In this document: positions 16,965 to 48,107 of the stretch, in pieces
Numbering within the stretch: position 1 is the stretch's first letter
Layout: each line of letters begins with the position of its first letter
DNA from: Gemmatimonadota bacterium
Lineage (GTDB): Bacteria; Gemmatimonadota; Gemmatimonadetes; Gemmatimonadales; GWC2-71-9
Reading direction: 5' to 3'
NCBI GenBank assembly: GCA_040388535.1
Contig: JAZKBR010000002.1
Location: 1,024,838 to 1,088,837, forward strand
DNA: 64,000 nt
Notes under the pieces: generated by a model
The model's database searches: none
What the model was told of the DNA's origin: nothing
What the model saw: the letters and a program-made list of their open reading frames with translations, nothing else
Made by a program: the position numbers and the translations under genes

Positions 16965-19900
16965 ATGAAGCAAACTGTTGTGAAGGCCCTCGCACGTTCG
17001 GCGCGCGCAGTCGCGCTGGCGGCGGTGGTATCCGGGCTCGGCGCTACGGCGCTCGTTGCCCAGTCCACCGGCAAGCTCGAGGGACGTGTTCGCGACCCGG
17101 GCGGTCAGCCCGTCGCCAATGCGCGCGTCGCCATCGTCGGTAGTGCGGCATCTGCCGTGGCAAACCCGCAAGGGTACTACTTCATCAACAACGTACCTGC
17201 GGGCGACTTCTCGATCCGGGTCTCTTACGTCGGCTACAAGCCGGTGGAAGTCTCGAACGTGAAGATGCTCTCCGGTCAGACCATCACCCAGGACATCACG
17301 CTGACGCAGACGGCCGTGACGGTGCAGGAAATCACCGTCGTCGCCGCGCAGAACGCGCTGGTGCCTCGCGACAAGGTCACCTCGAAGCAGCTCGTCGACG
17401 GGTCCTACACCGACAAGCTGCCGGTCGACCGCATCGGTAGCGTCCTGGCCTTGCAGCCGGGCGTCGCTTCTTCGCCTGGCGGCGGCACGCTCTCCGTGCG
17501 CGGTGGCCGTGGCGACGAAAACGCCACGTACATCGACGGTGTCCCGGTCGCCCAGGGTAACCGCGGCACGGGCGCCGGTCGTGGCCTTACCGCCACCGGA
17601 AGCCAGCAGGGCAACCTGAACGCGCCGAGCACCGGCACCGGCACCGTCGGCGTCGGCACCAACTCCTTCGAAGACGCCTCGGTCACCACCGGCGCCTCCT
17701 CGGCCGAGTTCGGTGGCGCGCAGGGCGGCGTGATCTCGATCACCACCAAGACCGGTGGTTCGCGCTTCGCCGGCAACGTCGGCTACGAAACCGACGAACT
17801 CGCCGGTCAGCGCTACGGCCAGGGCTACAACCGCCTGCAGGCCTCGCTCGGCGGCCCGATCATGAAGGACTTCACCTTCTTCGTCGGTGGCGTCCTCGAA
17901 GGCGCGAAGTCCGGTCTCCGCGGCTACAACGGCTGGGAAGTGCCGAACTTCGTCCGTACCACGGTCGACACCACCTACGCGGTGCCGCGCACGCGTAACT
18001 CGGCGACCTCCGACACCTTCCAGGTCCCGGTCTACAAGTATGCGATGTTCCGCGGTGAGTGCGACAACGCGGTCGTGGCGAATGCCTCCGACCCGGACAT
18101 GCGCGATAACTACGGCTACGAGTGCCACGGCAACCGCAGCGCGTACGCACCGACCACGAACATCCAGCTGACCAGCAAGCTGAACTACTCGTTCGGTCAG
18201 GGTTCGCGGGTGTCGCTCTCGTACATCACGAGCAGCAACCAGAACCGTGGCCAGCGTGGCGCGGACGGAACGGCCGGCACGCTCACGCGCAACAACGTGG
18301 CGACGCTGAACTGGACCCAGACGCTGAGCAAGAATGCATCGCGCGCCATCGCGCTCGATGCCTACCTCTCGTATCAGTGGGATCGCTCGATCAACTCGAC
18401 GCTCACTGCGGCGTCGGAAGAGAGCACCCGCAATCCGTTCAACGGCTGGCTGCTCAAGAACTTCGATTTCATCTATGACATGAAGACCTTCCCGGTCACC
18501 GATGAACTCGTGCGCAACTACCGCATCCAGCAGGCCGGGACGCCGATCACGGTCTACGACCGCTTCAATACCTCCCAGTACAACGGCAACACGGGCTGGG
18601 GCGGCGCGCCGGACGGCGTCGGTATGGGCGCTGGCGGCGGCGGTACCGCGCCGGGCGTCCTGAGCACGGCCTCGGAAAACCGCCTCGTCGGCAAGGCCAA
18701 CCTCGACTGGCAGCTCGACCGCTACAACCGCGTGAAGTTCGGCGGCGAGTACACCAAGTACACCACGAGCACCTACAACATCGGCGCCACCGGTCAGTCG
18801 TTCTCCGACATCTGGCTGGCCAAGCCGATTCGCTACAACGTCTTCGCCGAAGATCGTCTCGACCTCGGTGACGTCGTCCTCGTCGGCGGCCTGCGCTACG
18901 ACTATTTCGATGTCGGCGCGAGCCACTGGAAGGACTTCCCGCGGATCTCGTCGGCGCCGGGCTTCACGCCCGAGACCGTCGACAATTACCTGACGCCGTT
19001 CAAGAGCCACAACTACCTGTCGCCGCACATCCAGGTCGCCTTCCCGGTGACCGAGCGGACCAACTTCCGCCTCTCGTACGCGCAGCAGGTGCAGCAGCCG
19101 GACTTCTCGGTGGTGCTCTTCGGGTCGAACACCGACCTCTCGATCACCAACACGAACAACAACTACGGATCGGACCTCGACTTCGGCAAGTCGATCCTGT
19201 TCGAGTTCGGCGTCTCGCACGCGTTCAGCGATGACATGGTCCTCGACCTGACCGTGTACAACAAGGACAACCTGGCCAACCCGGCCGGTCGTCTGATTCC
19301 GCTGACCGACCCGATCGGCAACGACCGCAACGACATCCGCCTCACGGTGAACCAGGACTTCGGTAACACCCGCGGACTCGACCTGCGCCTCGATCGTCGC
19401 TTCGGCAACATCTTCAACGGCACCATCAGCTACTCGTTCCAGGATGCCAAGAACACCGGCTCCGATCCGTACTCGTACATCAACTACGGTTCGCGCATCC
19501 TCTCCGGCCTGGGCGGCACCAACGCCTCGCCGCCGCAGCAGGCCCAGCCGGTCGGCACCTCGCGTCCGCACAACATCGCGGGTCAGGCGGCGTTCAACTT
19601 CCCGGCCGACTACAAGTCCGGCTCGCTGGTTGGCTCCATCATGAAGCGCGTCGGCATCTTCAGCACCTTCCGTTACGCGGCCGGCACGCCGTACACGCGC
19701 TGCCCGGCGACCGAAGAAGCCTCGATCAACGTCACCTCGGGCAACCCCTGCGGACGTGAACTCGCCGGCGACTTCAACGCGGCGCGGCTCCCGGCCTACA
19801 AGGAGTTCAACCTCCGCGTGACCAAGGGCTTCGCGGTCGGCAAGCTCGACTTCACTGCCTATGCCGACGGCCGGAACATCCTGAACCTGAAGAACATCGG

Positions 19901-20267
19901 CACCGTGTTCACGACCACTGGCTCGATCCAGAACGTGACCTCGCAGGACCGCGCCTGGACGGGCGACTCCACGACCTTCGCGAACTTTGCGAAGGGCAAC
20001 GGCGCCTACAACAACGCCAGCGGCACCATTTCGCTGCCGACGTCCAACGCCGGCTGCGCCAACTACGCCGACGCCTCGGGCAACTCTGCCGGACCGAGCT
20101 GCTACTACTACCGCAAGTCGGAACAGCGCTTCGGTAACGGCGATGGCGTCTACACGCTGGCAGAACAGCGCCGCGCGTCGGACAACAACCAGCTCGGTAA
20201 CTACCACGTGTCGCGGTTTGCCTTCGCTGGTCGGACGGTACGCTTCGGTATGGAAGTGAATTTCTGA
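16965..20267 (+). CDS. Oar-like TonB-dependent outer-membrane receptor with carboxypeptidase-regulatory domain
   Basis: The 1100-residue protein begins with a signal peptide (to about 33, ALVAQ). Next come a carboxypeptidase-regulatory-like domain (36-120, GRVRDPGGQPVANARVAIVG), then a TonB plug (about 130-270, with RIGSVLALQPGV, RGGRGDE and YIDGVPV), and a long beta-barrel ending in Phe. It lacks a SusD partner, unlike true SusC systems. GGAGG at 16952-16956 supports the ATG at 16965 over an upstream frame extension. It should import a large or scarce ligand using TonB energy; the ligand is unknown. It is first in a five-gene series. Confidence 0.93.
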   Translation: MKQTVVKALARSARAVALAAVVSGLGATALVAQSTGKLEGRVRDPGGQPVANARVAIVGSAASAVANPQGYYFINNVPAGDFSIRVSYVGYKPVEVSNVKMLSGQTITQDITLTQTAVTVQEITVVAAQNALVPRDKVTSKQLVDGSYTDKLPVDRIGSVLALQPGVASSPGGGTLSVRGGRGDENATYIDGVPVAQGNRGTGAGRGLTATGSQQGNLNAPSTGTGTVGVGTNSFEDASVTTGASSAEFGGAQGGVISITTKTGGSRFAGNVGYETDELAGQRYGQGYNRLQASLGGPIMKDFTFFVGGVLEGAKSGLRGYNGWEVPNFVRTTVDTTYAVPRTRNSATSDTFQVPVYKYAMFRGECDNAVVANASDPDMRDNYGYECHGNRSAYAPTTNIQLTSKLNYSFGQGSRVSLSYITSSNQNRGQRGADGTAGTLTRNNVATLNWTQTLSKNASRAIALDAYLSYQWDRSINSTLTAASEESTRNPFNGWLLKNFDFIYDMKTFPVTDELVRNYRIQQAGTPITVYDRFNTSQYNGNTGWGGAPDGVGMGAGGGGTAPGVLSTASENRLVGKANLDWQLDRYNRVKFGGEYTKYTTSTYNIGATGQSFSDIWLAKPIRYNVFAEDRLDLGDVVLVGGLRYDYFDVGASHWKDFPRISSAPGFTPETVDNYLTPFKSHNYLSPHIQVAFPVTERTNFRLSYAQQVQQPDFSVVLFGSNTDLSITNTNNNYGSDLDFGKSILFEFGVSHAFSDDMVLDLTVYNKDNLANPAGRLIPLTDPIGNDRNDIRLTVNQDFGNTRGLDLRLDRRFGNIFNGTISYSFQDAKNTGSDPYSYINYGSRILSGLGGTNASPPQQAQPVGTSRPHNIAGQAAFNFPADYKSGSLVGSIMKRVGIFSTFRYAAGTPYTRCPATEEASINVTSGNPCGRELAGDFNAARLPAYKEFNLRVTKGFAVGKLDFTAYADGRNILNLKNIGTVFTTTGSIQNVTSQDRAWTGDSTTFANFAKGNGAYNNASGTISLPTSNAGCANYADASGNSAGPSCYYYRKSEQRFGNGDGVYTLAEQRRASDNNQLGNYHVSRFAFAGRTVRFGMEVNF

Positions 20268-20290
20268 TCCACGCTTCGCCCTGGGTAGAA

Positions 20291-20314
20291 CGGATGGGCC
20301 TTCCGGCCCATCCG
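20291..20314 (+). terminator. Intercistronic hairpin
   Basis: CGGATGGGCC (20291-20300) pairs perfectly with GGCCCATCCG (20305-20314) around TTCC. It stands between the receptor and the secreted-protein gene without a T-tract, so it may attenuate or protect the transcript instead of ending it. Confidence 0.6.
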
Positions 20315-20354
20315 CTCCACTCCGGTCGCCAGTTTCCATTCTCGAGAGGTCGCA

Positions 20355-23300
20355 ATGCATTCACTGCGTGGTAAGCGGGGCAGGATCGCGACGCTTTTGT
20401 TCGCGCTCGCGGCGGCAACGGCACTGCCGAGCCCGGCTGCAGCAGGTCCGGAGCCAGGCGCCAAGTCTGGGTCACGGTTCCGGCTCCTGGCCGGTTCCCT
20501 CGGCGCCATGACCATCAACCGCGTGTACTACGGTCTCAGCACCGGCGGTCTCGTCGGCGTTGACTCCACCAACTCGTCCACCATCGGCGGCGGTTTCTGG
20601 CCGAAGGGCACGGGCGACCAGTACATGTTCAATTCCGGTCTGCAGGTGTCCGGCATCATCAAGGGCGCCAAGTCGGCTTCCAACCCGTGGGGTGGCGACA
20701 CCACCGGCGGCTTCTTCTTCGATCCGAAGGGAACCACCGAGCACGGTATCGGCCTCACCGACCTCTACAACGCTGGCAATCCTGGCGACGTAGCGAACTG
20801 GCCCTCCTACGGCTTCGTGCCGCAGGGCGACACCAGCGAAGTGCTCTTCGACCCGCTGCTCCGCGGCCGGCTCTCCGGTTCGCAGGGCGACGTCTGGTTC
20901 CTGACCTGGGAAGGCGATCCGGGCGTCAACGCCGGCCGTCCACACCCGCTCGGCATCGTTGCCGAGTACCGCGGTCTGGGCTGGAACTATCCAGCCGGTA
21001 ACGAAGACATCCTCTACTTCATCATCACCTTCTACAACGTCACGTCGGTCAATCCGGCGGACTACGCGAATGTCCGTGACGGGCTCCGCGAGAAGCTGGT
21101 CGAAGCGGCAGGAAACTTCCAGCGCCTCAACAACGCGAAGTTCGGCATCACGCTGCCGACTGCGGGCTACACCATCAATCCGTTCTATGCCGCCTTCGCT
21201 GCCGACGCCGACGTCGCTGCAGCCGGCGCCAACTTCGCCTCGGTGAACCTGCCGTTCGCGATGGGTTACGTCTACGACGGTACCTTCTCGAAGCCGGCCG
21301 GCTGGCAGTTCGACCCGGCCATCTTCGGCAAGCCGTTCTTCGCCGGCTCAGGCTTCGTCGGCGTGAAGTACCTCAAGGCGCCGAGCGGCGCTGGTCAGAT
21401 TCAGCTCTTCTCGCTGACGACCAACGGCGGCTCGTTCCCGGACCCGGCCAACACCACTCGCCTCTTCCGCTACATGTCGGGCGATGTCGGACCGGACCTT
21501 GGCGTCGCCTGTAACCAGGGCGTCGTGCAGGTCACCCACATCTGCTACGTCAAGTCCGACGCCGGTTCGGACGTCCGCATCCTGCAGTCGGCCTCGGCCG
21601 ACTCGCTGAAGCCGGGCGAATCGAAGTCGATCGTGGTGGCGTACATCCACGCGGCTCCGGTGGCTCTTGCGGCCTACCAGGGTGGCGCGCCGTTCGTGCC
21701 GCCGGGCGATCCGACCCGCCTCAGCAACCCGGGCCTCCTCGTTGCCGGCGCCAACAAGATCGACTCGCTGACCGGTTTCAACGGCTACACCGACGCCAAC
21801 AACGACGGCATCGTGCAGCAGTCGGAAATCAAGACGATCCCGGGCTCGCTGCTCAACAAGGGCCTCACGGCGCAGGCCGTGTTCGATGCCAAGTTCCTGC
21901 TCCCGTTCTCCCCGGAAGTGCCTGAATTCTTCCTGATCCCGGGCGACGAACAGGTCACCGTGCTCTGGAAGCCGTCGGCATCGGAAGCGCAGGGCGACGC
22001 GTACTTCCAGATCGCGAGCACTCCGACCGTCACGCCTCCGGGCGGCGGCGCGCCGGTACCGAATCCGCTCTACGATCCGAACTACCGCAAGTTCGACGTC
22101 GAAGGCTACCGCATCTATCGCGGCCGCATCGACTCGCCGAACTCACTCAAGCTGATCGCCCAGTACGACTATGCCGGTACCGAGTTCAAGGACTTCGGCG
22201 GCCAGGTGCCGCTCGGCTCGGCCTGCGCCCCTGAAATCAGCGTCACCACGTCGTGCGCTGGTGTCTTCGACCCGATCGTCTCGGGTGTGGGTCGCACCAA
22301 GTTCCGTTCGTACGACATCAGTGGCGAGTTCTTCCAGGTCAAGTTCGGTAACCGCGTCCAGCTCATCTCGGGCGACATCCTGAACCTGACGACCGACACG
22401 CTCATCACCGGCAAGAACAGCGGCTTCCCCGCGCTGGCCAACACCGGTGTCCCGTTCGTCTACCACGACCATGACGTCCATAACGGCCTGGTCTACTACT
22501 ACGCCGTCACGGCGTTCGACGTCAACTCGATTCAGTCTGGTCCGTCCAGCCTCGAATCGCCGCGCATCACGCGGCGTGTGACACCGAACACCAACTCGGC
22601 GAACTACGTCTCCAGCGCCACGCTGACCACGACGATTGAAGGCCGCGGCGTGAATCAGACCGCGAAGTTCCCGACCGCTCCGACGCTCGACGGCACGACC
22701 GGCATCTTCTCCGGTCCGCAGCAGCCGATGAACGCTGGTGTGCTCGGCTTCGTGGGTGACCTGGCGAAGGAAGTGGTCAAGACTGGCGGCGCACTCCGCG
22801 TCAAGCTCGACTCGATTGACATGGGCCAGATGGATCTCTCTGGCTGCTGCGGTGGTGGTTCACCGGCGATCGCGCAGAACTTCTACGTCTCGCTCACGGC
22901 CGATGGCGCGACCACGAAGGTGAAGATCCCGGTCACCAACCGTCTCGAGTTCGACGTCACGTCGGCTCAGTTCTTCGACGCACTCACGGTCGATCCGGTG
23001 CTGGCGGCCAAGTTCGGCGCCAACACGGCCTTCAAGGCGAAGGGTTCGTTCGCGATCACGATGCCTGAGGGGCCGAAGACCGGCGCCTGGAGCCTTGGCG
23101 CTGCGCTGGCCGAGCCTGGCTTCGCCGCGGGCGACCTGCCGGCCGGAACGACCAACTTCCGGTACAACGGTGCCCGCTGGTTCGACGGTCCTTCGATCAC
23201 CAAGAACGAAGTCACCGCTGATCCAATCAACGGCTCCTGTGGTGGCACTGGTCTGACGGCCGCGTGCTCCTCCACAACCTCGTTCGCCAATGCCGGCAAG

Positions 23301-24323
23301 CTGACCGGCGTGACCACGGTGTACCAGCCGATGGCGTACACGATGTTCAACCGTGAGTGGCGCAACATGGAGTCGCCGCTCTCGACTGTCCGTCGTGCCG
23401 CCGACTACAACATCTACTGGGGCGCCGCGGGCAAGGTCGACTCGGTCATCGACGTGACGCACAACGTCGTGGTGCCGTTCCAGGCCAACACCGTGACGGC
23501 TGGCTGGGGCATCCTGAACCAGGCTGCAACCAACGCGGCGGGCTTCTTCGACAACCGTCCCGGCGTCCTCACGCCGACCGACTGGGTCTGTGTCGAACCG
23601 TTCCGCAGCAAGATTTCGCAGCCGACCAACACGTTCTTCTCGTGCACGGCTCCGGCAGTTCCGCTGAGCCAGACGGCGACGCTCGGTCCGATTGCCTTCG
23701 GTGCCGGCGACAACCAGGCCACCACGGGCCAGTCGGTCCGTAACCCGGCCAACCTGCAGGCCAATCCCGGTTTCTCGATGATCGTTGCCGGTGTCATCTC
23801 GATGTTCGAAATGGCGGCACTGCCGGCGCAGGGGACGGTCTGGGCGCTGCGCGACTACGCTGGTGGCATCATCGCCGGCGGCAAGGGAACGGGTGGGTCG
23901 GGTAATGCTGGTCCATATCGCTTCGTCGCGGGTGTTCGCCCGTTCACAGCGGTCGGAGCCGAGGTCGTGGTCTCCTACGCGGTCGAGAACACTGTGGGAG
24001 CCTCCACGGCGGCCTCGCTGGCGAAGGTGCACACGGTGCCGGACCCGTACTACGTGACCAGCGCCTTCGAGGCAACAACCACGAGCAAGATCATCCGCTT
24101 CGTGAACCTGCCGGAGAAGGCCACCGTCCGCATCTACACGTCGAGCGGTGTGCTGACCCGTGTTCTGAAGCAGGACTCGGGGATCTTCGGTGGCGAACTC
24201 ACCTGGGACGTCCGTAACCGGAACAACCAGTTCGTCGCCAGCGGTGTGTACTTCTACCACGTCACGGCGGAGAACGGTGAAACCACCGTTGGCCGCATGA
24301 CTATCGTCAACTACGCCCAGTAG
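20355..24323 (+). CDS. Large secreted protein with fibronectin-like region and T9SS-type C-terminal domain
   Basis: The 1322-residue protein has a signal peptide (about 1-31, ALPSPAAAG). A fibronectin-III-like stretch around 515-740 contains FFLIPGDEQVTVLWK and VEGYRIYRGRI. The final ~100 residues resemble a type-A T9SS sorting domain: VPDPYYV, a KATVRIYTSSGVLTRVL strand pair, LTWDVRNRNNQ and ASGVYFYHV. The middle is unrecognised. GAGAGG precedes the ATG. With a PorV-like gene next and sprA in the window, secretion to the surface by a T9SS-like route is a reasonable inference. The ligand or substrate is unknown. Confidence 0.85.
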   Translation: MHSLRGKRGRIATLLFALAAATALPSPAAAGPEPGAKSGSRFRLLAGSLGAMTINRVYYGLSTGGLVGVDSTNSSTIGGGFWPKGTGDQYMFNSGLQVSGIIKGAKSASNPWGGDTTGGFFFDPKGTTEHGIGLTDLYNAGNPGDVANWPSYGFVPQGDTSEVLFDPLLRGRLSGSQGDVWFLTWEGDPGVNAGRPHPLGIVAEYRGLGWNYPAGNEDILYFIITFYNVTSVNPADYANVRDGLREKLVEAAGNFQRLNNAKFGITLPTAGYTINPFYAAFAADADVAAAGANFASVNLPFAMGYVYDGTFSKPAGWQFDPAIFGKPFFAGSGFVGVKYLKAPSGAGQIQLFSLTTNGGSFPDPANTTRLFRYMSGDVGPDLGVACNQGVVQVTHICYVKSDAGSDVRILQSASADSLKPGESKSIVVAYIHAAPVALAAYQGGAPFVPPGDPTRLSNPGLLVAGANKIDSLTGFNGYTDANNDGIVQQSEIKTIPGSLLNKGLTAQAVFDAKFLLPFSPEVPEFFLIPGDEQVTVLWKPSASEAQGDAYFQIASTPTVTPPGGGAPVPNPLYDPNYRKFDVEGYRIYRGRIDSPNSLKLIAQYDYAGTEFKDFGGQVPLGSACAPEISVTTSCAGVFDPIVSGVGRTKFRSYDISGEFFQVKFGNRVQLISGDILNLTTDTLITGKNSGFPALANTGVPFVYHDHDVHNGLVYYYAVTAFDVNSIQSGPSSLESPRITRRVTPNTNSANYVSSATLTTTIEGRGVNQTAKFPTAPTLDGTTGIFSGPQQPMNAGVLGFVGDLAKEVVKTGGALRVKLDSIDMGQMDLSGCCGGGSPAIAQNFYVSLTADGATTKVKIPVTNRLEFDVTSAQFFDALTVDPVLAAKFGANTAFKAKGSFAITMPEGPKTGAWSLGAALAEPGFAAGDLPAGTTNFRYNGARWFDGPSITKNEVTADPINGSCGGTGLTAACSSTTSFANAGKLTGVTTVYQPMAYTMFNREWRNMESPLSTVRRAADYNIYWGAAGKVDSVIDVTHNVVVPFQANTVTAGWGILNQAATNAAGFFDNRPGVLTPTDWVCVEPFRSKISQPTNTFFSCTAPAVPLSQTATLGPIAFGAGDNQATTGQSVRNPANLQANPGFSMIVAGVISMFEMAALPAQGTVWALRDYAGGIIAGGKGTGGSGNAGPYRFVAGVRPFTAVGAEVVVSYAVENTVGASTAASLAKVHTVPDPYYVTSAFEATTTSKIIRFVNLPEKATVRIYTSSGVLTRVLKQDSGIFGGELTWDVRNRNNQFVASGVYFYHVTAENGETTVGRMTIVNYAQ

Positions 24324-24336
24324 TCCACGGAGCCGG

Positions 24337-24364
24337 GACGGCGCGCCGCTTGCGACGCGCCGCC
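24337..24364 (+). terminator. Intercistronic GC-rich hairpin
   Basis: A 13-base stem with two imperfect pairs (24337-24349 with 24352-24364) lies between the large secreted protein gene and the porin-like gene. The Shine-Dalgarno AGGAG of the next gene follows eight bases later. Confidence 0.5.
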
Positions 24365-24384
24365 CCACCTCAGGAGAACGACGC

Positions 24385-25509
24385 ATGATGCGCTTCACCA
24401 AGTCTCGCTGGATCTTTGCCCTCGCCCTCGTCGGCTTCGCGCCGGCGGTTGCCGTGGCCCAGGAATCCAACGCCGACAACGTGGGCTACGGGACGACTTC
24501 CGCGGAGTTCCTGCTCCTCGGTGCCAACGCCCGCGGCACCGCTCTCGGCGGATCCTACGTTGCCGTCGCCACTGATGTCGGTGGTGTCAACGCCAACCCC
24601 TCGGCCATCGCACTGATGACCCGGCCCGGCGTGCAATTCTCGCAGTTCAACTACGTCGCCGACACCAAGCTCAATTGGGGCGCAGTCGCGTTCCCGTTCG
24701 GCGGCGGGTCGAAGGCGTTCGGCATGCAGATCGGGACCTTCGGGTTCCACGACCAGCCGGTGTACACCCCGTCCAACCCGGAAGGGAACGGCGAGCTGTA
24801 CGACGTCTCCGAAACGTTCGCGGCACTGACCTTCGCCCAGAACTTCTCGGATCGCTTCTCGGTCGGTATCACGGCCAAGGGCGTCTTCGACCAGCTCGGC
24901 CAGGCCTCGGGAACGGCGTTCGCACTCGACTTCGGCACGCACTTCCATTCGAACCTGAATGGCAAGCCGATCCGCTTCGCCTTCACGCTGACCAACCTCG
25001 GTACCTCGCTCAAGTACGAAGGCGACGCCATTCGCACCACGGCGCCGCGCGACTCGATCGAAGGCGTCGACCCGATCGCCACGCTGCCGCAGCCGGCGAC
25101 TCTCCGCACCAGCGGGTTCTCGCTGCCGACCACGTTCCGCGTGGGTCTGGCATACGATATCCTCGCCGCGGGGAACAATCGCTTCACCCTCATGGGTGAG
25201 TTCAACCAGCAGCGCTCCAACAAGGCCGCCTTCGGCTTTGCCGGTGAGTTCGCGGCCAACAAGCTCGGCGGCTCGGGCTTCGGCGTCGCGGTTCGCGGAT
25301 CGTACTCCTCAACGCCTGCCAACTCGTACAATTCCGACTTCTTCGGAGTCGGCGTCGAGAAGGCCAGCGCCGAGAAGACCCAGGGCCTCGCCTTTGGTGG
25401 CGGCCTGAACTACAGCAGTGCCAACTTCTCGCTCGGCTTCGACTACGCCTATCGCAAGATGGGCCTGCTCGGCACGACGAACTTCTTCACCGTGTCGCTG
25501 GGCTGGTAA
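24385..25509 (+). CDS. PorV/PorQ-like outer-membrane protein
   Basis: The 374-residue protein has a signal peptide (FAPAVAVAQ) and the N-terminal PorV/PorQ pattern: FLLLGANARGTALGGSYVAV, then a VNANPSAIA block like the NPA(G/A)(L/I) motif. A 14-strand-type barrel region ends FFTVSLGW. In T9SS, PorV shuttles cargo from the SprA translocon to the surface. AGGAG lies eight bases before the first of two ATGs. It directly follows a gene with a T9SS-like tail, which strengthens the reading. A plain FadL-like barrel is the alternative. Confidence 0.82.
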   Translation: MMRFTKSRWIFALALVGFAPAVAVAQESNADNVGYGTTSAEFLLLGANARGTALGGSYVAVATDVGGVNANPSAIALMTRPGVQFSQFNYVADTKLNWGAVAFPFGGGSKAFGMQIGTFGFHDQPVYTPSNPEGNGELYDVSETFAALTFAQNFSDRFSVGITAKGVFDQLGQASGTAFALDFGTHFHSNLNGKPIRFAFTLTNLGTSLKYEGDAIRTTAPRDSIEGVDPIATLPQPATLRTSGFSLPTTFRVGLAYDILAAGNNRFTLMGEFNQQRSNKAAFGFAGEFAANKLGGSGFGVAVRGSYSSTPANSYNSDFFGVGVEKASAEKTQGLAFGGGLNYSSANFSLGFDYAYRKMGLLGTTNFFTVSLGW

Positions 25510-25512
25510 GCA

Positions 25513-26958
25513 ATGCTTTACGGTCTGCTTCTCTCGTTCGGCGCCCTGGGTGCCACCGTTCCCGCACCGCCGCGTCTGGCAGTGCAGGCCATCCGGTATT
25601 ACGTGCCGTCGGTGAAGCAGACGCAGGTGATCGGGTTCCTTCAGGTGCCCTATTCGCTGACGGAACCCGCCGGTAACCGGATCGCCTGGCAAGTCTCTCT
25701 GGTCATCAAGGATGCTGCCGGCACCACGCTCGGCAGCCAGAGCTGGTGGTCGGGCGCACCGGCGGCAGCTCGTTCCGCCGACGCCATGGGGATGGAACCG
25801 CTGCGCTTCCCACCGATGGCACCGGGGTCTTATCTGGTGCAGGTCACGGTGAAAGACAGTGTCAGCGGCAAGACCGCCACGACACAAACGGCGGTCGAGG
25901 CATTCGCGACGTCACCAGGAGTTTCCGACCTGTTGCTCGCCAGTGCCATGCGCCGCGCTGCGCCGGGCGACAGCACCTCCGGCATCGGGGAATTCGGTCG
26001 CGGTTCGTATCGCTTCATCACCGCGCCCGACCTGAAGCTCGATGGTGCCAATCCCGTGCTGTCGTATCTGCTCGAGGCATATACCGATGCCGAGGCGTCG
26101 GCGGCCACCACGATTGACGTGCGTGACGCTGCGGGCAAGAGCATCTACAAGCTGCCGGCTACCCGGCAGATGATCCCGGCTGGCGGCGGAGTCATCGCCG
26201 GTCAGCTGCCGCTGGAAGGTCTGGGCGAAGGGAACTACAAGTTCGTGGTTTCCGTGGCGCTTGGCGGCCGGACCATCGAACGGAGCGGCGACTTCGCCGT
26301 CGGCGGGCTGCAGGCGTCATTGGCGCGGGACATCGCGACTCGGTCGGCGTCACGCGGGCTCGACGAAGCCTACTTCGGCGGCATGACCGAAGAGCAGCTC
26401 GACGAAGCTGCCGAAGTCTTGCAGCTGATCGCGACCAACAAGCAACTCGCCGTCTACAAGAAGACCGGGGCCGACAAACTTTCCCCCACGGCCAAGCGGG
26501 CGTTCCTCGTCTCCTTCTGGGCCGAACGAGACCAGAACAAGGCGACGCCGGAGAACGAAAACCGGATCGCCTTCTACGACGCGGTCGATTACGTCAACAA
26601 GACCTACGGTGAGCGCGGTCGCGCGGCCCGGCCAGGCTGGAAGACCGATCGTGGCCGGATCTGGGCTCGCAACGGTGCACCGGATGACAACTACAAGCGG
26701 GCGCAGGAAGGTCGGGCGCCCAATATCGAAGTCTGGCGCTACACCCGCGGGCGGATGCGCTACTACATCTTCGCCGATCGCAACGGGCTGAGCCAGTATC
26801 AGCTGATGAATTCGAACGATCTCAAGGAGCAGGGCCTCTCCGACTGGAGAGAGATCGTGACCTACGAAGCGGCCCACGATCTGGGTACCTACCTCGGGGT
26901 CAACTTCTCCGGTGCCATTCCTGGCTCCGGCGGGGGAACCACGTCGCCGCCGCAATAG
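25513..26958 (+). CDS. GWxTD-domain protein
   Basis: The 481-residue protein starts three bases after the porin stop and has a hydrophobic N-terminus. Its C-terminal part (about 330-455) carries the GWxTD signature PGWKTDRGRIW followed by RNGAPDD, and an aromatic WRY...YYIFAD segment. GWxTD proteins are known almost only as a family of unknown function in FCB and related bacteria, and they often sit with surface-protein genes. The N-terminal half is beta-type and probably envelope-located. Function unknown; the tight spacing suggests it works with the porin. Confidence 0.85.
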   Translation: MLYGLLLSFGALGATVPAPPRLAVQAIRYYVPSVKQTQVIGFLQVPYSLTEPAGNRIAWQVSLVIKDAAGTTLGSQSWWSGAPAAARSADAMGMEPLRFPPMAPGSYLVQVTVKDSVSGKTATTQTAVEAFATSPGVSDLLLASAMRRAAPGDSTSGIGEFGRGSYRFITAPDLKLDGANPVLSYLLEAYTDAEASAATTIDVRDAAGKSIYKLPATRQMIPAGGGVIAGQLPLEGLGEGNYKFVVSVALGGRTIERSGDFAVGGLQASLARDIATRSASRGLDEAYFGGMTEEQLDEAAEVLQLIATNKQLAVYKKTGADKLSPTAKRAFLVSFWAERDQNKATPENENRIAFYDAVDYVNKTYGERGRAARPGWKTDRGRIWARNGAPDDNYKRAQEGRAPNIEVWRYTRGRMRYYIFADRNGLSQYQLMNSNDLKEQGLSDWREIVTYEAAHDLGTYLGVNFSGAIPGSGGGTTSPPQ

Positions 26959-27043
26959 GACCAGTACAAGTAGTGACCCACCGGTCGCCTGCGGCCGGCA
27001 TTCGAAAGTGCAGCAATCCATCACATTTCGTGAGGAGCAGCGT

Positions 27044-28453
27044 ATGAAGGGACTGATTCGTGGGGCCGCAGGACTCGCCGTCGTGTTGGCAATGTCGGCC
27101 TGCAGCAAGGACGAAACCATCGACCTGATGGGTGCGCCGACCGGCGTTCAAGCGACTCCGATCTCGGCATTTACCACCAAGGGCGACTCCGTGGCGATCC
27201 TGCTCCGCCTCGTGAACGACCGGAACCAGTCGATTCCGACCGAGTTCACGGTCGGCAACGCCGGACCGGCGCTTACGATCCACTATGACGACAAGTACCG
27301 CCCCGACTACACCTCGGGCGAATTGGTACCGCCTGCCGTGAAGCCGCAGCAGCGCTACTTCGCGCTGGGCACGAACAATGGGACGTCGACGTTCACCGCG
27401 ACCGCTGGCGGCTTCACCAGCACGATCACCGTGGTGGTGTTGCCGAAGACGCTTGAGGCCGCACTGAACAAGACCGCGAACCTCGTTGCCGGCGATACGG
27501 TAATCATCAATGCACCTGCAGGGCTCAAGTTCACGCCGACCTCGGCGGTCTCCTTTGCGACTGGCGCGAATGCCATCGCATCCCGGGCGGCAGACTCGAG
27601 CAGCATCAGCGTCATTCTCGGGCCTGGCACCGGCGGAATCGCCACGGTGACCAACGTCTTCCTGAACTACGCTCCGACGCTCGCAGTGAAGACCTATACC
27701 ACCACCAACGCGGTCGCTAGCACACCGGCCATCACCGTTGCCCCGACCACGGTCTCCAATGCGGCGCCGAACATCGGCGACACGATTGCCGTGACGCTTG
27801 GTGGGAACCTGCGTTTCCTCGCGGATTCCAAGGTGCTGATCGGCGGAACCGAGGCAGGCATTGCCAGCGTAAACGCTGACAGCTCCGTGGCGATGGTCAT
27901 CCCGGTGCGCAATTCGACCGGTAAGGTCACCTACACCAACATCGCCCTGAAGTACCTGAACGTCGTGAAGCTGGCTGTGGATGGCGACAAGAATGTTGCG
28001 GTCACCAACACCTACGCCGGGCCGACGCTCGCCGGGACCGGCTCGCCGGCCACCGCCCCGTCCATCTTCGTTCCCGCCAAGCTCGGCAGGACGGTTGTGC
28101 TGACTGACATCGGTAATGGCGGCACGTTCAACGTCGGTGGCGCCTGCACCCACGCCGGCGAGAACAGCTGCAAGATCTACAAGATGGTCCTGCCGGTCGC
28201 CGCAACCCTGGACATGAAGCTTTACTGGAAGGGTTCGGCCGACCTTGGGCTCTACTTGATCAACGCAGCCGGTACGACTGCGTCGAACATCAGCTCGGGC
28301 GCCAACATTCCAGACCAGTTCGGGCCGCAGACCGATGGTCCGGAAGTGTCGGCCGCAGTCGCTTTCGCGGCGGGCACCTACTACTTCCTGGTCGCGAACT
28401 ACAGTGGGCTCAACGCAATCTCGAGCCTGCAGATCGCGTTCACGATCCGGTAA
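27044..28453 (+). CDS. Lipoprotein with Ig/TIG-like repeats and PPC-like C-terminus
   Basis: The 469-residue product has a lipoprotein signal peptide (LAMSAC, Cys about 22). GAGGAG at 27032-27037 supports the ATG at 27044 over longer upstream frames. Residues 30-330 are repetitive beta-type sequence rich in Thr, Val and Gly, with repeated GDT(I/V) turns like Ig/TIG-type domains. The last ~110 residues (GGACTHAGENSCKIYKM through AAGTYYFLVANYSG) resemble a bacterial pre-peptidase C-terminal/PPC-type domain. It closes the five-gene series and may bind the same ligand or surface. A strong terminator follows. Confidence 0.75.
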   Translation: MKGLIRGAAGLAVVLAMSACSKDETIDLMGAPTGVQATPISAFTTKGDSVAILLRLVNDRNQSIPTEFTVGNAGPALTIHYDDKYRPDYTSGELVPPAVKPQQRYFALGTNNGTSTFTATAGGFTSTITVVVLPKTLEAALNKTANLVAGDTVIINAPAGLKFTPTSAVSFATGANAIASRAADSSSISVILGPGTGGIATVTNVFLNYAPTLAVKTYTTTNAVASTPAITVAPTTVSNAAPNIGDTIAVTLGGNLRFLADSKVLIGGTEAGIASVNADSSVAMVIPVRNSTGKVTYTNIALKYLNVVKLAVDGDKNVAVTNTYAGPTLAGTGSPATAPSIFVPAKLGRTVVLTDIGNGGTFNVGGACTHAGENSCKIYKMVLPVAATLDMKLYWKGSADLGLYLINAAGTTASNISSGANIPDQFGPQTDGPEVSAAVAFAAGTYYFLVANYSGLNAISSLQIAFTIR

Positions 28454-28474
28454 CCGCTGGACAGCAGGTAAACG

Positions 28475-28510
28475 AACCACCCCCGTCCGGGATTCCGGGC
28501 GGGGGTGGTT
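28475..28510 (+). terminator. Terminator after the receptor/porin series
   Basis: AACCACCCCCG (28475-28485) pairs perfectly with CGGGGGTGGTT (28500-28510), followed by TGCTTTT. It is the clearest intrinsic-type terminator in this half of the window and marks the end of the five-gene series. Confidence 0.85.
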
Positions 28511-28594
28511 TGCTTTTGGTAAGGGAGCCGCTGACCGACTGACACTCAAGGGTACCAGCTGCGTATGTTCGGCCGACTCACACCCGGACCACGA

Positions 28595-34904: not shown

Positions 34905-34985
34905 TGTCACCCTGAGCGAAGCGAGGGGGCGGAGCTCCGTCTCCCTCGACTTCGCAGCCCTGCGGGCTGCTTCGCTCAGGATGAC
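34905..34985. repeat. Dispersed inverted element, single copy
   Basis: The left arm GTCACCCTGAGCGAAGCGAG (from 34905) and right arm GCTTCGCTCAGGATGACAT (to 34985) are complementary around a GC-rich centre. This is the same family as 3838-3953 and 12510-12714. It follows the permease stop by 36 bases. Confidence 0.8.
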
Positions 34986-34988
34986 ATG

Positions 34989-35034
34989 CCCTTCCCCCTT
35001 CCCCCTTCCCCCCTCCCCCTTCCCCCGTCCCCGT
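34989..35034. repeat. Homopyrimidine tract (G-quadruplex motif on the minus strand)
   Basis: The plus strand holds an unbroken 38-base pyrimidine run with six C-blocks of three to six bases separated by one or two T. After one G it continues with CCCC. The complementary strand therefore has six G-runs with short loops. It lies 150-200 bases upstream of the second receptor gene. Confidence 0.8.
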
Positions 35035-35187
35035 CTGATTCGTACCCAACCGTCGCTCCCCCGTGACCTTCCCCAGGAATTTTCCAGCAGTTCCAGGCTG
35101 GTTGCTTGCGTACCTCACTCTCGGGGACGACATTTGTGCCGCTGCCAGTCTCGGGGCACCCCTCACCACGGAATCACAGGAGTTGCA

Positions 35188-41918: not shown

Positions 41919-42011
41919 GGCGGGGGGATGGCCGTCCGGTTGTGGTGCCCCACGTGAGGGGCGTAGGTTACTGTCGTCCGGTCTCCAAGCTAATCCCCCG
42001 ACTCCCCATCC

Positions 42012-45000
42012 GTGGCGCCACTCGCCCTCTTTCTCCTTCTCGCCAGCCTTCTCGCACCATGGTCCGCCGGGGCCCAGCTTCCCGCGGATACCATTCGTGC
42101 CAGAATGGGCGTTCACGGCACTCTCCCCGGCGCGCTGCCGACGGTGGGGGAGCCGGCGGTCCTGCGCGCACCCTGGCTCTTTCCGGCCGGGCGTTCCGTG
42201 GCGGGTCGGGTCGCACGTTTCGATACCGCCACCACGGCGGCCGTCGAGGCCCAGCGTCTTGCGGCGGCCCATCAGCGTCTGTTGATGGCGCTGTACCGTG
42301 GCCGCGGGTTCGGAGCGAGCCCGCGTGCCGACGGTGGCATCGCTGCCGAGGCGGCCCCTCGCGGCCTTTTCGGGCTCAACCGCAACGTTGCCGACCTGCA
42401 GTTTGATGGGGCGTTGCAACTCACCATCGGGACCGACCGTTTCAAGAACCTGCGCTGCACACCCTCGCAGCTGCAGGATCCCAATTCGGGGTGTCGCCCG
42501 AAGTTCAAGCCGCCGCGCATCGACAACCAGTTACGCTTCCAGGCGAGTGGACTGATCTCGCAGCGGCTCCGGGTCGACATCGATCTCGACAACACGCGCG
42601 AGTTCAATAACGCCAATAACATCCGCGTCTCGTACACCGGTCTCGAGGACGAGGTGCTGAAGCGGATCGATGTCGGCACGGTGCAGTTCCGGCCGCCGCT
42701 CTCCCGCTTCCTGACCGCCGGCATCCCGACCAACAACTTCGGCATCAACACCACGGTGGAACTCGGTCCGGTCGAGGTGCAGGCGCTCGCGGCCACGCAG
42801 TCGGGGAGCCAGGTCGGAACCAGGACCTATACCATCGGGTCGGAGACGACCGAGCCGCAGGACCGCGAAGTCGCCGACCTCAATTTCGAGGCGCGGCGCT
42901 TCTTCTGGGCCGTCGATCCGCGCACCCTCCCGGGCTACCCCGCGATCGATGCCCTTTCACTGCAGGGGCTGACGCTCGCGCCGTCGCTCAAGCCGACTGA
43001 AGTGCGGATCTACAAGTACCGCTCGGTCGCGGCCGGCGGGACCGGGGCCAACCCGAACCTTGACGGCATCACCGCGCTCGGCCTCAATCAGAGTGGCACC
43101 ACCATCGAGAAAATCGGCCCCCTCCGCTGGCAGCTGCTCCAGCAGGGACGCGACTACTGGCTCGATCCGTCGGGGCTCTGGTTCGTGCTCACGGCCAAGC
43201 TCGATCCGAATGACCTACTCGCGGTGAGCTATACCACTGCGGATGGTGGCCGCGTCGGGACCTTCCCCGCGACCGACGATCCGACGCGCAGCGATACCCT
43301 GCGCCTGATCCTGCAGCCCAATCGCGGCCCCGACGCTGGCTCGTTTGCGCACTCGATGCGCAATGTCTATCGCGTCACAGGGAGTGATCTCCAGGCGGGC
43401 TCGCTCGCCGTTGCGATCACGCTGAATCGCTCGGAGCTGCCGCCCGACGGGGTCGGCACCTGGCTCTCGCGCTTCGGCCTCGCGCTGCCCAACGACGCCA
43501 AGTTCTTCGACACCGACAATCGCCTCTTTCCGCGAAGCCGCGATCCCGGTGCGACGGCAACGATCCTCGATCATTTCATCTTCTTTCCGTCCCAGCAGCC
43601 GTTTGCCGACGCGGCGCGGATACCGGACCCGCAGTTCCGGAACGATTCGCTCTATCGCACACCGGAATACCTGCTCTTCGAGCAGGGGCCGCCGGCGAAA
43701 TATCAGATCCGCCTCCAGTACGCGGCGCGGGGCGGCGGCGACAAGGGATCGATCAACCTCAACGCAATCCAGATTCGCGAAGGGACCGAACAGCTCACCG
43801 TTGACGGGCTCCGGCTCACCCGGGGTGTCGACTATTCCATCAGCTACGGCACCGGAATGGTCACCTTCCTCGAGCCGGAACGTCTCTTCAGTCGCGGCAC
43901 GTCCACCGTGACCGCGAGCTTCGAGCAGCAGGGTTTCTTCGCAATCGCACCGACATCGATTTTCGGCCTCACCGCGCGCTACCGCGTCGGCTCCATCGGC
44001 AGCGTGAACCTGGTCGGCCTCTATCAGTCGGAAGCCACAGCCTTCACCCGACCTCAGCTCGGATTCGAGCCCACGGCCTCGCTGCTCGCAGGCGTGACCG
44101 GACAATTCAATTTCCGTCTCCCGGCGGTCTCGCGCTTCCTCAAGGGGCTCGCGCGCGGCGGCGTGGTGGCGCCGTCGTCACTCGAGCTCAATGCCGAACT
44201 CGCGTTCTCGCGACCGGATGCGAATCGCTCGGGTGAGGCCTACCTCGAAGAATTCGAGAACGATGCCGGGATTCCGATCCGGCTCGGTGAAGGGAACTGG
44301 CAGATCTCCTCGATGCCGCAATCGTCGGCGGGCGTGGAAGCCCTCGGCTTTCCGAGCGGGTTCGACTCGACCAGCGCCGTCCAGCTCAGCTGGCAGAACC
44401 TGGTGCCGAATCGTCTCGGCCTCGCCAACGAGATCACGGCCGAGGCCATCGACCCGAACATTCAGATCGTCGGCGGCAAGAGCACCAGCCCCGAGACCGT
44501 CGCCTACATCACCTTCCACGCCGATACCGCTGGCGGCATCGTCGCGCGCAACAACCACTCGCACTGGAGCCTGCCACCGCGACCGTTCCAGCCACGCTGG
44601 CGCTCGGTGGTGACGCCGCTCTCGCTCACCGGTGTCGACCTCACCCGCAACGAGTTCCTCGAGTTCTGGGTCTTCGAAGGCGAAGACGACAAGCCGGTCG
44701 AATCCTCGGAAATGCGCTTCATGCTCGACCTCGGCAGTGTCAGCGAGGACGCGCTGGCGATTGCGCCGACGGCCTTCACGGTGAGTGGGACTGATACGAC
44801 CTGGACCGGGCGGCAGTATGTCGGCGCGGGCCGACTCGACACCGAACGCAATGCCACGGGCACCTATTCCGCCGTCACTGATGATGTCGGGATTCTCGGC
44901 GACCGTCCCGACCAGGTCACCGGACCGCTGGGCCCGGTGCTTCGGCCAGCGCTCTGTCGGCGCACGGTCACCGCGTCCGTCGAGATCTTCCCCTGGGGCG

Positions 45001-48000
45001 ATCTCTCGGCCCGCTGCTCCAATGGCAACGGCCTGCTCGATACCGAAGATCTCGATGCCGACCTGCTCCTCAACGCGCGCGGCCCCGATGAGGATGCCTT
45101 CCGCTACATCATCGATCTGCGCGATCCCAAGTACTTCGTCCGCACCGGCGTGGTCTCCACCGACAACGCAACCGGGCGGAAGGCCGCGTGGAAGCTCTAC
45201 CGCGTGCCGCTGCGTCAGTGGGATCGTCAGGTTGGCCAGCCCAACATGCGGCTGATCAAGCACCTCCGCTTCACCTTCCTGACGCCGCCCGACAAGGGGG
45301 GCTCCGACCCGGTGGTGCGCTTCGCTCTGGCGCGCATGCGGCTCATTGGCGCGCCCTGGGTCCGCCGGGCCGAGACGCCGATCGCAGGGATCAGCGGGTC
45401 GACCGGAGTCAGCCACGGTGATGTGTCGGTGTCGGCGATCACCACCGAGAACCTCGAACTCGGCTACGTCCCGCCACCGGGCGTGGTGAGCGCGACGAAG
45501 GACGTGGCGGGAGGCCAGTCGAGCCTCGGCCAGCAGATCAACGAAAAGGCCCTCCGTGTGGTTGCCAAGGATCTCCGCTCGGGCGAGCGGGCTGAGGCGT
45601 ACTTTCGTTTCCTCGGCGACGCGCGCAATCTCCTGTCATATCGCGAGCTGCGGCTCTGGCTGCGCGGTCGTGGCACCGGCTGGGAAGACGGCACGCTGCG
45701 AGGCTACATCAAGGTCGGCGCCGACGCACGCAACTTCTACTGGTTCGACGCGAGTGCATTGACCACGACCTGGGAGCCCGAGGTCGTCGTCAATCTCGAC
45801 ACCTGGCGCAAGCTGCGTGCGCAGGTTCAGGAGCGCTATCTCCGTGGCGAAGCACCGAGTGGATCGCTTGAATGCGGCGGCGATCCCGAGGCGTACGTGG
45901 CGTGCGAAGGGCCGTACATCGTGCACCTGCGCGATCCGGGGATCAGCGAACCGAACCTCGCGAAGGTGCAGGAGATTGCCACGGGCATCTATCACAAGGC
46001 CGGTGGCGCAGCGCCAGCGGCAGCCGAGCTCTGGATTGATGACATCCGGCTCGCGACTCCCATCACCGAGGTCGGTCGTGCTGCGGCCATCAACGCGCGG
46101 CTCCTGGCCACGGACCTCGGCGATGTCACCCTGGACTATGTCTATCAGGACGGCCAGTTCCGGCAGATTTCGGCGGCCCCCTCCTATCGCACGACCGGCA
46201 CCTTGCAGGCGAGTACGAACCTCCGACTCGATCGCTTTCTGCCGGCGTCCTTCGGCCTCGCGATGCCGTTGTCGCTCGGCTACAACGCCAGCAGCACCGA
46301 TCCCGAGCTGATTGCCGGTTCGGATTTACGGGCCGCCGAGCTGGTCGATCTGCGACGCCCGCGGAGCAACAACTCCTCGTTCTCGCTCAACGTGCGCCGC
46401 GTCGTGAACACCGGAAGCTTCCTGACTCGACTGCTGCTGAATCCGCTCTCGTTCAGCGCCAACTTCGCCGGCGCCGACGCAACCACCGAATTGAGCGACG
46501 CGAATTCCTCGTTGTTCAACTATTCGCTGGGATGGTCGGTCGCCGGGGGGCGGCGAACGCGTTCACTCGGATTCGGGCGACTGGCGCGAGGGCTGCCGCG
46601 CTGGCTCCGCGAGAGTGAGAGTGGTCGGGCGCTGGGTCGCGCGAACATTGCGCTGCTGCCGACGGCACTGCGACTCAACACGACGCTCTCGCGCACCCAG
46701 GGTGACTACACCTCCTTCCTGGTGCCGATCCATCGCGCCTCCGACACGCTGCTGAAGCCGGTGACCTCGTTGCAGTATCTCTGGCGCAACAATGTCGGTA
46801 CCAGCTGGCAGCCACTGCAGATGATCACCCTGAACGCCGACTGGACCAGCACGCGCGATCTCCGGAACTATCCCGATTCCACCTCCATCGGGCGGCTCGC
46901 CGGCGCCTCGCGCCGCCAGTTTCTCGGCACGGATGTCGGTGTCGAGCGCGATCGCAACGTGACCTCGGGGATCTCGCTCAATCCGACACTCGCGTCATGG
47001 CTGCGCCCGCGCATCTCGACCGTGTCGTCGTTCATCCTCTCGCGGTCTCTCACGAGCCGCAATCCGGTGCGAACCGATGGGGATACTCTCGGGGAATACA
47101 TTCTTCCCCAGACGCTCAACAACGCCCGCATCTCCGAGATCGGCGCCACCATCGATCCCGCTCTGCTGCTGCGACGCGTGCTCGGCGATTCCAGCAAGAC
47201 CGCCAGGTATTTCTCCCGCCTCCGACAGCTCGATGTCACCCGCCGCCGGACCCGGCAGTCCACCTTCGACCTGGCCGCCTTCGATCCGTCGATCGGCTAC
47301 CAGCTCGGCACCGGTAGCTTCGATTCCTTCCTCCATCAGGGGAGTGATGTCGCGCTCGGGGCGAGTCAGTACTGGGAGACATCCTTCACCGCTGGACTCG
47401 AGTTGCCGCTCGGCCTGTCGGTGACCTCGACCTATCAGGAAAACCACAACGATCGCTACCAGCGTGCCACCGCCGATGCCTTCATGGTGACCGAGACCCG
47501 CTCCCGTGACTGGCCGTACGGCTCGGTGAGTTGGAGCAGAGTCTTCCGTGGTGGCCCCCTCTCCCTGGTCACCCTGTCGTCGTCGCTGCGCCAGCGGCAG
47601 AGTTCAACCCGGACCCCGCGGCTCGACGGTGCCTCAGCGGCAACGAGCGCAACCACCAACCGGACGTTCGGCCCCGAGGTGCGTCTCACCTTTCGCAACG
47701 GCATCAGCCTGCTGACCCGTGCGACTATGGACCGCTCCGAGAGCCGCGACAACGGCTCGCTCCGGCGCGGGAATATCGATAACCTGAGCGGCGAGCTATT
47801 CTGGAGCGTCCGGCTGCCGCGCGCCCTGTCGGAACTCCGTAAGCCGCTGCGGACGCAGCTGTATGCCACCATCCGACGCAGCAATGACTGTCTGCTGCGC
47901 GCCGAGGGCCAGGAGTGCGAAACGGTTTCGGATATCCGCGGGCACGACATTCACGGCTCCCTGACGACCGACGTCTTCGGGCGGGTGACAGGCGGGCTCG

Positions 48001-48107
48001 TCTTCGGTTGGGTAGTGAATGACTTGCGATATCTCGATCGGAAGACGTCGACGATTTCGGCCGCCCTCAACTTCAATATTCCGCTCACCATGCCGGGGAA
48101 TCGCTGA
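42012..48107 (+). CDS. sprA: SprA-like T9SS outer-membrane translocon protein
   Basis: The 2031-residue protein has a signal peptide (LAPWSAGAQ) and SprA-like segments. Examples are an early NTREFNNANNIRVSYTGLED block, like the SprA region before the barrel, and FGINTTVELGPVEV soon after. SprA forms the 36-strand outer-membrane channel of the T9SS in Bacteroidota. The start is GTG at 42012, with no obvious ribosome-binding site. It is divergent from lptF/lptG by 93 bases. The length is a little under the Bacteroidota type (~2300-2500). The M28 gene overlaps its stop (TGATG). Confidence 0.85.
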   Translation: MAPLALFLLLASLLAPWSAGAQLPADTIRARMGVHGTLPGALPTVGEPAVLRAPWLFPAGRSVAGRVARFDTATTAAVEAQRLAAAHQRLLMALYRGRGFGASPRADGGIAAEAAPRGLFGLNRNVADLQFDGALQLTIGTDRFKNLRCTPSQLQDPNSGCRPKFKPPRIDNQLRFQASGLISQRLRVDIDLDNTREFNNANNIRVSYTGLEDEVLKRIDVGTVQFRPPLSRFLTAGIPTNNFGINTTVELGPVEVQALAATQSGSQVGTRTYTIGSETTEPQDREVADLNFEARRFFWAVDPRTLPGYPAIDALSLQGLTLAPSLKPTEVRIYKYRSVAAGGTGANPNLDGITALGLNQSGTTIEKIGPLRWQLLQQGRDYWLDPSGLWFVLTAKLDPNDLLAVSYTTADGGRVGTFPATDDPTRSDTLRLILQPNRGPDAGSFAHSMRNVYRVTGSDLQAGSLAVAITLNRSELPPDGVGTWLSRFGLALPNDAKFFDTDNRLFPRSRDPGATATILDHFIFFPSQQPFADAARIPDPQFRNDSLYRTPEYLLFEQGPPAKYQIRLQYAARGGGDKGSINLNAIQIREGTEQLTVDGLRLTRGVDYSISYGTGMVTFLEPERLFSRGTSTVTASFEQQGFFAIAPTSIFGLTARYRVGSIGSVNLVGLYQSEATAFTRPQLGFEPTASLLAGVTGQFNFRLPAVSRFLKGLARGGVVAPSSLELNAELAFSRPDANRSGEAYLEEFENDAGIPIRLGEGNWQISSMPQSSAGVEALGFPSGFDSTSAVQLSWQNLVPNRLGLANEITAEAIDPNIQIVGGKSTSPETVAYITFHADTAGGIVARNNHSHWSLPPRPFQPRWRSVVTPLSLTGVDLTRNEFLEFWVFEGEDDKPVESSEMRFMLDLGSVSEDALAIAPTAFTVSGTDTTWTGRQYVGAGRLDTERNATGTYSAVTDDVGILGDRPDQVTGPLGPVLRPALCRRTVTASVEIFPWGDLSARCSNGNGLLDTEDLDADLLLNARGPDEDAFRYIIDLRDPKYFVRTGVVSTDNATGRKAAWKLYRVPLRQWDRQVGQPNMRLIKHLRFTFLTPPDKGGSDPVVRFALARMRLIGAPWVRRAETPIAGISGSTGVSHGDVSVSAITTENLELGYVPPPGVVSATKDVAGGQSSLGQQINEKALRVVAKDLRSGERAEAYFRFLGDARNLLSYRELRLWLRGRGTGWEDGTLRGYIKVGADARNFYWFDASALTTTWEPEVVVNLDTWRKLRAQVQERYLRGEAPSGSLECGGDPEAYVACEGPYIVHLRDPGISEPNLAKVQEIATGIYHKAGGAAPAAAELWIDDIRLATPITEVGRAAAINARLLATDLGDVTLDYVYQDGQFRQISAAPSYRTTGTLQASTNLRLDRFLPASFGLAMPLSLGYNASSTDPELIAGSDLRAAELVDLRRPRSNNSSFSLNVRRVVNTGSFLTRLLLNPLSFSANFAGADATTELSDANSSLFNYSLGWSVAGGRRTRSLGFGRLARGLPRWLRESESGRALGRANIALLPTALRLNTTLSRTQGDYTSFLVPIHRASDTLLKPVTSLQYLWRNNVGTSWQPLQMITLNADWTSTRDLRNYPDSTSIGRLAGASRRQFLGTDVGVERDRNVTSGISLNPTLASWLRPRISTVSSFILSRSLTSRNPVRTDGDTLGEYILPQTLNNARISEIGATIDPALLLRRVLGDSSKTARYFSRLRQLDVTRRRTRQSTFDLAAFDPSIGYQLGTGSFDSFLHQGSDVALGASQYWETSFTAGLELPLGLSVTSTYQENHNDRYQRATADAFMVTETRSRDWPYGSVSWSRVFRGGPLSLVTLSSSLRQRQSSTRTPRLDGASAATSATTNRTFGPEVRLTFRNGISLLTRATMDRSESRDNGSLRRGNIDNLSGELFWSVRLPRALSELRKPLRTQLYATIRRSNDCLLRAEGQECETVSDIRGHDIHGSLTTDVFGRVTGGLVFGWVVNDLRYLDRKTSTISAALNFNIPLTMPGNR

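Follow-up and report, generated by a model that had tools for sequence, protein, structure and literature searches.

SusCD systems explain much of the feeding of Bacteroidota. Surface display of proteins belongs to the biology of the T9SS (PMC8754138, PMC10994853). The C-terminal domain (CTD) of the T9SS protein PorZ is reported to be retained, uncleaved and bound to PorQ (reviewed in PMC10202324), and barrels of the PorP/SprF type collect and anchor type B cargoes that are encoded beside them (PMC9143113, PMC12618676); TonB does not appear in the main text of either of the latter two papers.

Here, we analyzed a 64,000-nucleotide stretch of Gemmatimonadota DNA (the window), which carries a run of five genes. 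The conserved core of this run is a triad of genes for a TonB-dependent receptor (TBDR), a CTD protein of ∼1,300 aa (the giant), and a barrel of the PorV/PorQ family; the five genes are not one system. The triad resembles the pairs of type B CTD cargo and PorP/SprF barrel (SprB-SprF; PG1035-PorP-PorE) in that the cargo gene adjoins the gene of its own FadL-type barrel and in that such pairs are multiplied within genomes, but it differs from them in the PorV/PorQ affiliation of its barrel, in a CTD of the PorZ or type A kind, and in a TBDR that accompanies every unit tested. With PorZ-PorQ it shares the best-scoring model of its CTD (PorZ) and the best equivalog model of its barrel (PorQ). However, PorZ delivers A-LPS to PorU, a protein that was not recognized in the genomes of the genus, and the scores of the triad proteins fall well short of the equivalog cut-offs. 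The SprA channel, a PorV-family barrel, and a related CTD are common to the triad and the canonical type A pathway with PorV and PorU, from which the triad is set apart by a barrel within its own operon, the lack of a recognized sortase, and the low number of cargoes in the genus of the window, where each genome has one or two. Finally, the triad is reminiscent of SusC-SusD, since a TBDR with an extra N-terminal domain lies beside a predicted surface partner and the unit is multicopy in some genomes. Unlike SusC-SusD, it has no SusD-like gene, its receptor falls outside the NCBIfam models, and a T9SS-type cargo takes the place of the surface lipoprotein as partner. The triad may work like SusCD, but it is not a SusCD member. 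All its parts come from known families. No description of their combination as a conserved unit was found in the open-access literature searched; one may exist in subscription journals or preprints.

Gene content and T9SS background of the locus

The preliminary description had proposed five co-directional envelope genes that end at one strong terminator (Table 1). All five ORFs were confirmed on the same strand, with intergenic gaps of 87, 61, 3, and 85 bases, and so was the hairpin behind them, in which 13 of the pairs are G-C. Its stem is by far the longest among nine terminator-like sites in the scan, a number equal to that expected from shuffled sequences. The promoter scan returned nothing prominent (1 found versus 1.4 expected). 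Two details of the initial picture changed. The hydrophobic N terminus of the GWxTD protein has no basic n-region, either in the window or in five relatives of the genus, and its export is therefore uncertain; the start of the lipoprotein gene was moved from 26912 to 27044 because the relatives begin there and a lipobox follows. After the lipobox cysteine, the window protein reads S-K-D-E (within 27044-27140), a motif that is not conserved in the relatives and that resembles the surface-export signal of Bacteroidota lipoproteins.

Table 1. Positions of the five-gene run and associated features in the window
Feature	Position	Strand	Basis
TonB-dependent receptor (TBDR), 1,100 aa, triad gene 1	16965..20267	+	Pfam PF13620, PF13715, PF07715
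Giant (cargo) of 1,322 aa with signal peptide, triad gene 2	20355..24323	+	CTD of PorZ/type A kind
Cargo C-terminal export/anchoring domain, residues 1218-1322 (predicted)	24006..24320	+	NF052228, TIGR04183
PorV/PorQ-family barrel, 374 aa, triad gene 3	24385..25509	+	NF033709
GWxTD-domain protein, 481 aa	25513..26958	+	TIGR04514
Predicted lipoprotein, 469 aa, weak PPC domain	27044..28453	+	Pfam; start of relatives; lipobox LAMSAC
Intrinsic terminator-like hairpin, 18 pairs	28473-28512	+	Terminator scan
Second TBDR, 1,161 aa, downstream of APC transporter	34981-38466
SprA, T9SS outer-membrane channel, 2,031-aa listed ORF, start codon provisional	42012..48107	+	TIGR04189

An N-terminal CarboxypepD_reg domain followed by Plug is all that Pfam recognized in the receptor, which does not place it in the SusC/RagA family; the NCBIfam search returned zero matches, SusC included, and no SusD-like gene was found among the five genes or the scanned neighbours. 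The barrel is a member of the PorV family by its score of 132.6 bits against NF033709 (cut-off, 90). It scored higher with the PorQ model (60.9 bits; cut-off, 220) than with the PorV model (41.8 bits; cut-off, 250), reaching neither equivalog cut-off. Consistently, 15 of 15 aligned triad barrels matched the family model, with PorQ ahead of PorV as the next best E value, and a profile of triad barrels aligned with the solved structure of PorV (6h3i_F; E = 2e-15). The barrel is probably the cognate shuttle and anchor of the giant.

The giant is a predicted T9SS cargo by virtue of a signal sequence, identified by inspection, a CTD, and the presence of SprA in the same genome. The best match of its CTD was the PorZ model NF052228 (37.8 bits, E = 7.8e-10, residues 1247-1319), a score far under the equivalog cut-off that involves only the C-terminal 70 positions of the model; the rest of PorZ has no match in the giant. 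TIGR04183 was matched at E = 8e-5; the complete protein scored 22.5 bits against a cut-off of 23, and the genome search gave 27.6 bits. PorZ is also the most frequent match of the giant and its relatives (7/7 in the genus and 13/14 in other lineages, only 2 of these 14 matching TIGR04183). Homology extends over the full length in Glassbacteria relatives (hhalign, E = 2e-58) and over the C-terminal part in Ignavibacteria relatives (E = 7e-30). The body of the window giant has zero Pfam matches and no relative in the PDB, and none of seven triad giants examined had any Pfam match; nearly all of ten ordinary cargoes neighbouring triads match Por_Secre_tail, with E values down to 2e-13. An AlphaFold model of the giant built from 17 sequences was too poor for a fold search (mean pLDDT, 38). 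Some type A cargoes that lie beside triads in Ignavibacteria-type genomes and other lineages carry CBM20 (starch-binding) or FG-GAP domains. One Ignavibacteria locus (L120, 10995-15830) has three tandem T9SS cargoes of ∼500 aa directly after the triad, which resemble the starch-binding-like ones.

T9SS parts were searched family by family across genomes. Each of four genomes profiled in the genus has one SprA and one PorV/PorQ member, and the giant is the sole type A CTD match in the window's genome and in two of the three others; G009 has a second one. Two Glassbacteria genomes hold 25 to 35 CTD proteins and 15 to 25 PorV/PorQ matches, and both exceed the cut-off of the PorU model. Genomes of the genus match only the CTD part of that model, which a divergent sortase could escape. 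The GldM and GldN models, used to look for the PorL/PorM motor and the PorK/PorN ring, gave no match at all, and the Rhodothermales genome that served as a control for GldN was no exception.

Conservation of the receptor-cargo-barrel order

Querying public genomes with barrels from Glassbacteria yielded 80 loci. Triads occur in Ignavibacteriota, Rhodothermales, Calditrichota, KSB1, Marinimicrobia, and other lineages, in the same order of receptor, cargo, and barrel: the CTD gene is present at 49/49 of these loci, a count that is partly selected because the query barrels were themselves taken from triads, and the receptor, which was not among the search criteria, at 34/34 of those with enough flank. 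At Gemmatimonadota loci, the CTD gene lies directly upstream of the barrel in 38/38 cases and the receptor is in place in all 30 with enough flank. Glassbacteria carry multiple PorV/PorQ genes, and all their barrels with enough flank except one sit in triads. A Glassbacteria-like barrel with a CTD gene was also read on a contig labelled Planctomycetota (L069, QNCA01000242.1), which may reflect a wrong label or misbinning.

The remaining two genes behave differently. Within the genus, gene order is kept at all loci that reach far enough, which says little since the flanks are syntenic too; among several families of the class, the order of the first four is unchanged. GWxTD is attached to the triad within Gemmatimonadota (families f1, f3, f4, f7, and f8), with a divergent GWxTD-domain protein a few kilobases away on the opposite strand at four of the loci read in family f2, and it is absent from all 80 scanned loci (52 triad barrels of other lineages plus the Glassbacteria loci). 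The lipoprotein is limited to the genus and near genera, apart from a weak match in one f3 genome. Both are lineage-specific additions, the former local and the latter restricted to close relatives.

Joint loss with SprA and the fate of GWxTD

SprA lies ∼14 kb downstream of the five-gene run and exceeds the TIGR04189 cut-off (G000:C2:1067971-1072011, i.e., window 43134-47174). SprA was matched in 106 of 150 Gemmatimonadota genomes and the giant in 45, every one of which has SprA (Fisher P = 6e-9; restricted to the family of the window, P = 4e-5; both values are overstated because the genomes are related). Seven SprA-less genomes of this family served as natural knockouts. At their module site, the M24 peptidase is followed by GWxTD and this in turn by the far-flank genes; receptor, giant, barrel, and lipoprotein are all missing. 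In those that were read to the SprA site, LptF directly adjoins the M28 peptidase and SprA is cleanly gone. In the window, SprA sits between LptF/LptG (38935-42419, minus strand) and an M28-type peptidase, a site that makes a useful marker of T9SS loss. A tree of fragments of four flanking genes, some of which are missing in some taxa, gave the SprA-less genomes at least two separate placements, namely a group and G025, which pairs with the SprA-positive G017 (support, 0.99). The triad and SprA thus disappeared together on at least two occasions, and this clean joint loss, with GWxTD left behind, indicates that triad and SprA belong together and that GWxTD depends on neither. The second TBDR of the window is kept in three genomes without the triad and is not part of it.

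The dependence is not reciprocal. SprA is kept without the triad in G020, G022, G029, and G150, which rules out a SprA dedicated to the giant alone. No CTD cargo was recognized in G020 (L138) or G022 (L140) despite SprA, so SprA has other work.

The GWxTD protein is a member of its family (72.5 bits against TIGR04514; cut-off, 28). Its gene is open in four of the SprA-less relatives, with a dN/dS of ∼0.2 among three of them (dS of 1.2 to 1.5, near saturation); in the SprA-less L021, L022, and L023 it is truncated in two cases and frameshifted in one. GWxTD is therefore under purifying selection where intact, decaying in some lineages and conserved in others. Its presence shows no association with that of SprA in the family (P = 1), and its survival without SprA led us to reject a role as an export part. 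No paper on GWxTD was found in the open-access literature, and its single-sequence AlphaFold model was too poor for a fold search (pLDDT, 40). A weak profile match in the PDB to ribosomal protein L15e (E = 6e-4) was judged a coincidence. Two more GWxTD-domain proteins are encoded in the window's genome (L015, 8351-9199; L016, 7912-8283), one of them in an 871-aa frame.

These findings redraw the preliminary description. Its central proposal, that a TBDR without SusD, a T9SS-tailed giant, and a likely shuttle form a unit, is borne out by the invariant order, by SprA in every giant-bearing genome, and by the joint losses. Conservation of the five families and of their order, which it had suggested examining, held for the triad across lineages, with GWxTD and the lipoprotein dropping out beyond the relatives. 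The inclusion of these two proteins in the core did not survive their distribution and the retention of GWxTD without SprA. Likewise, the idea that the context hints at a GWxTD function was not supported; the context argues against a role in this export.

Proposed role of the triad and alternative readings

Our preferred reading, to which we assign about an even chance, is that the triad makes a T9SS-displayed surface binder, anchored by its own barrel and partnered by a TBDR for ligand import, in a SusCD-like manner. The working unit would be the triad (16965-25509). Sec would export the giant to the periplasm, from where it would pass SprA by means of its CTD and emerge in complex with the PorV/PorQ-type barrel of its own triad. 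As no PorU sortase was recognized, the CTD would probably remain uncut and the barrel serve as a permanent anchor, as proposed by analogy with PorZ, which stays on PorQ, and with type B cargoes and their PorP/SprF barrels. Beside the TBDR of the same operon, the giant thus anchored would capture or present a ligand that the receptor would import. The job of GWxTD would be independent of the T9SS. Export of the giant through SprA is supported by its CTD, the barrel, and the joint loss. The receptor in every triad tested, its co-loss, the multicopy state, and the CBM20 and FG-GAP neighbours point to ligand capture and import. The conservation of the triad, its tie to SprA, the small numbers of cargoes and shuttles, the failure to recognize a sortase, and the independence of GWxTD were observed; we infer that the giant is exposed on the surface, stays anchored without cleavage, and contacts the receptor, and that a ligand is imported.

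A long giant body without known catalytic or binding domains would also suit a coat or adhesin, and type B cargoes with barrels of their own are known or predicted adhesins (PMC12618676). The receptor would then supply a nutrient or ion for the coat, or sense it, instead of taking up a ligand of the giant. We consider this unlikely, given that every triad tested has a receptor next to its cargo, that the receptor was co-lost in at least two lineages, and that starch-binding cargoes neighbour triads elsewhere. Loss of the receptor along with SprA and the cargo, together with the failure to recognize GldM in these genomes, would fit a receptor that aids export instead, by TonB-driven release or placement of the cargo-barrel pair, and that perhaps substitutes for the PorL/PorM motor. 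However, the motor searches gave no positive at all, so that absence is not implied, and no precedent was found in the literature searched; a receptor with this task appears improbable.

Co-directional genes with short gaps, a single terminator, and an order of the first four that persists through several families of the class would be expected of a single system dedicated to export and uptake whose core includes GWxTD and the lipoprotein. This is quite improbable in view of triad loci that lack GWxTD in other lineages, of GWxTD genes maintained without triad and SprA at a dN/dS of about 0.2, and of a lipoprotein confined to close relatives. As to shared ancestry as the sole cause of the gene order, with functions unrelated, the syntenic flanks in the genus speak for it, but the triad order holds across divergent lineages and many paralogous copies and the three genes were lost together. 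The conservation across lineages and copies refutes this explanation, which retains next to no probability.

We extend the preferred reading, more tentatively and at somewhat less than an even chance, to a SusCD counterpart across the superphylum (Gemmatimonadota, Ignavibacteriota, Calditrichota, and Rhodothermales), in which a TBDR works with a giant T9SS partner held permanently on its own PorQ-type barrel. This unit would have been multiplied in some genomes, and the genus of the window would have been left with hardly anything beyond SprA and a single triad. The triad context is no ground for annotating GWxTD as a component of the T9SS or of uptake, and a misleading clue to its function is thereby removed. 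Lineages of the superphylum other than Bacteroidota need an answer to feeding that is not SusCD. If the proposal is true, the combination of TBDR, T9SS cargo, and own barrel would link secretion with nutrient uptake in one unit, a PorV-family barrel could serve as a dedicated and lasting anchor, and the genus would make it possible to study a T9SS that has very few clients.
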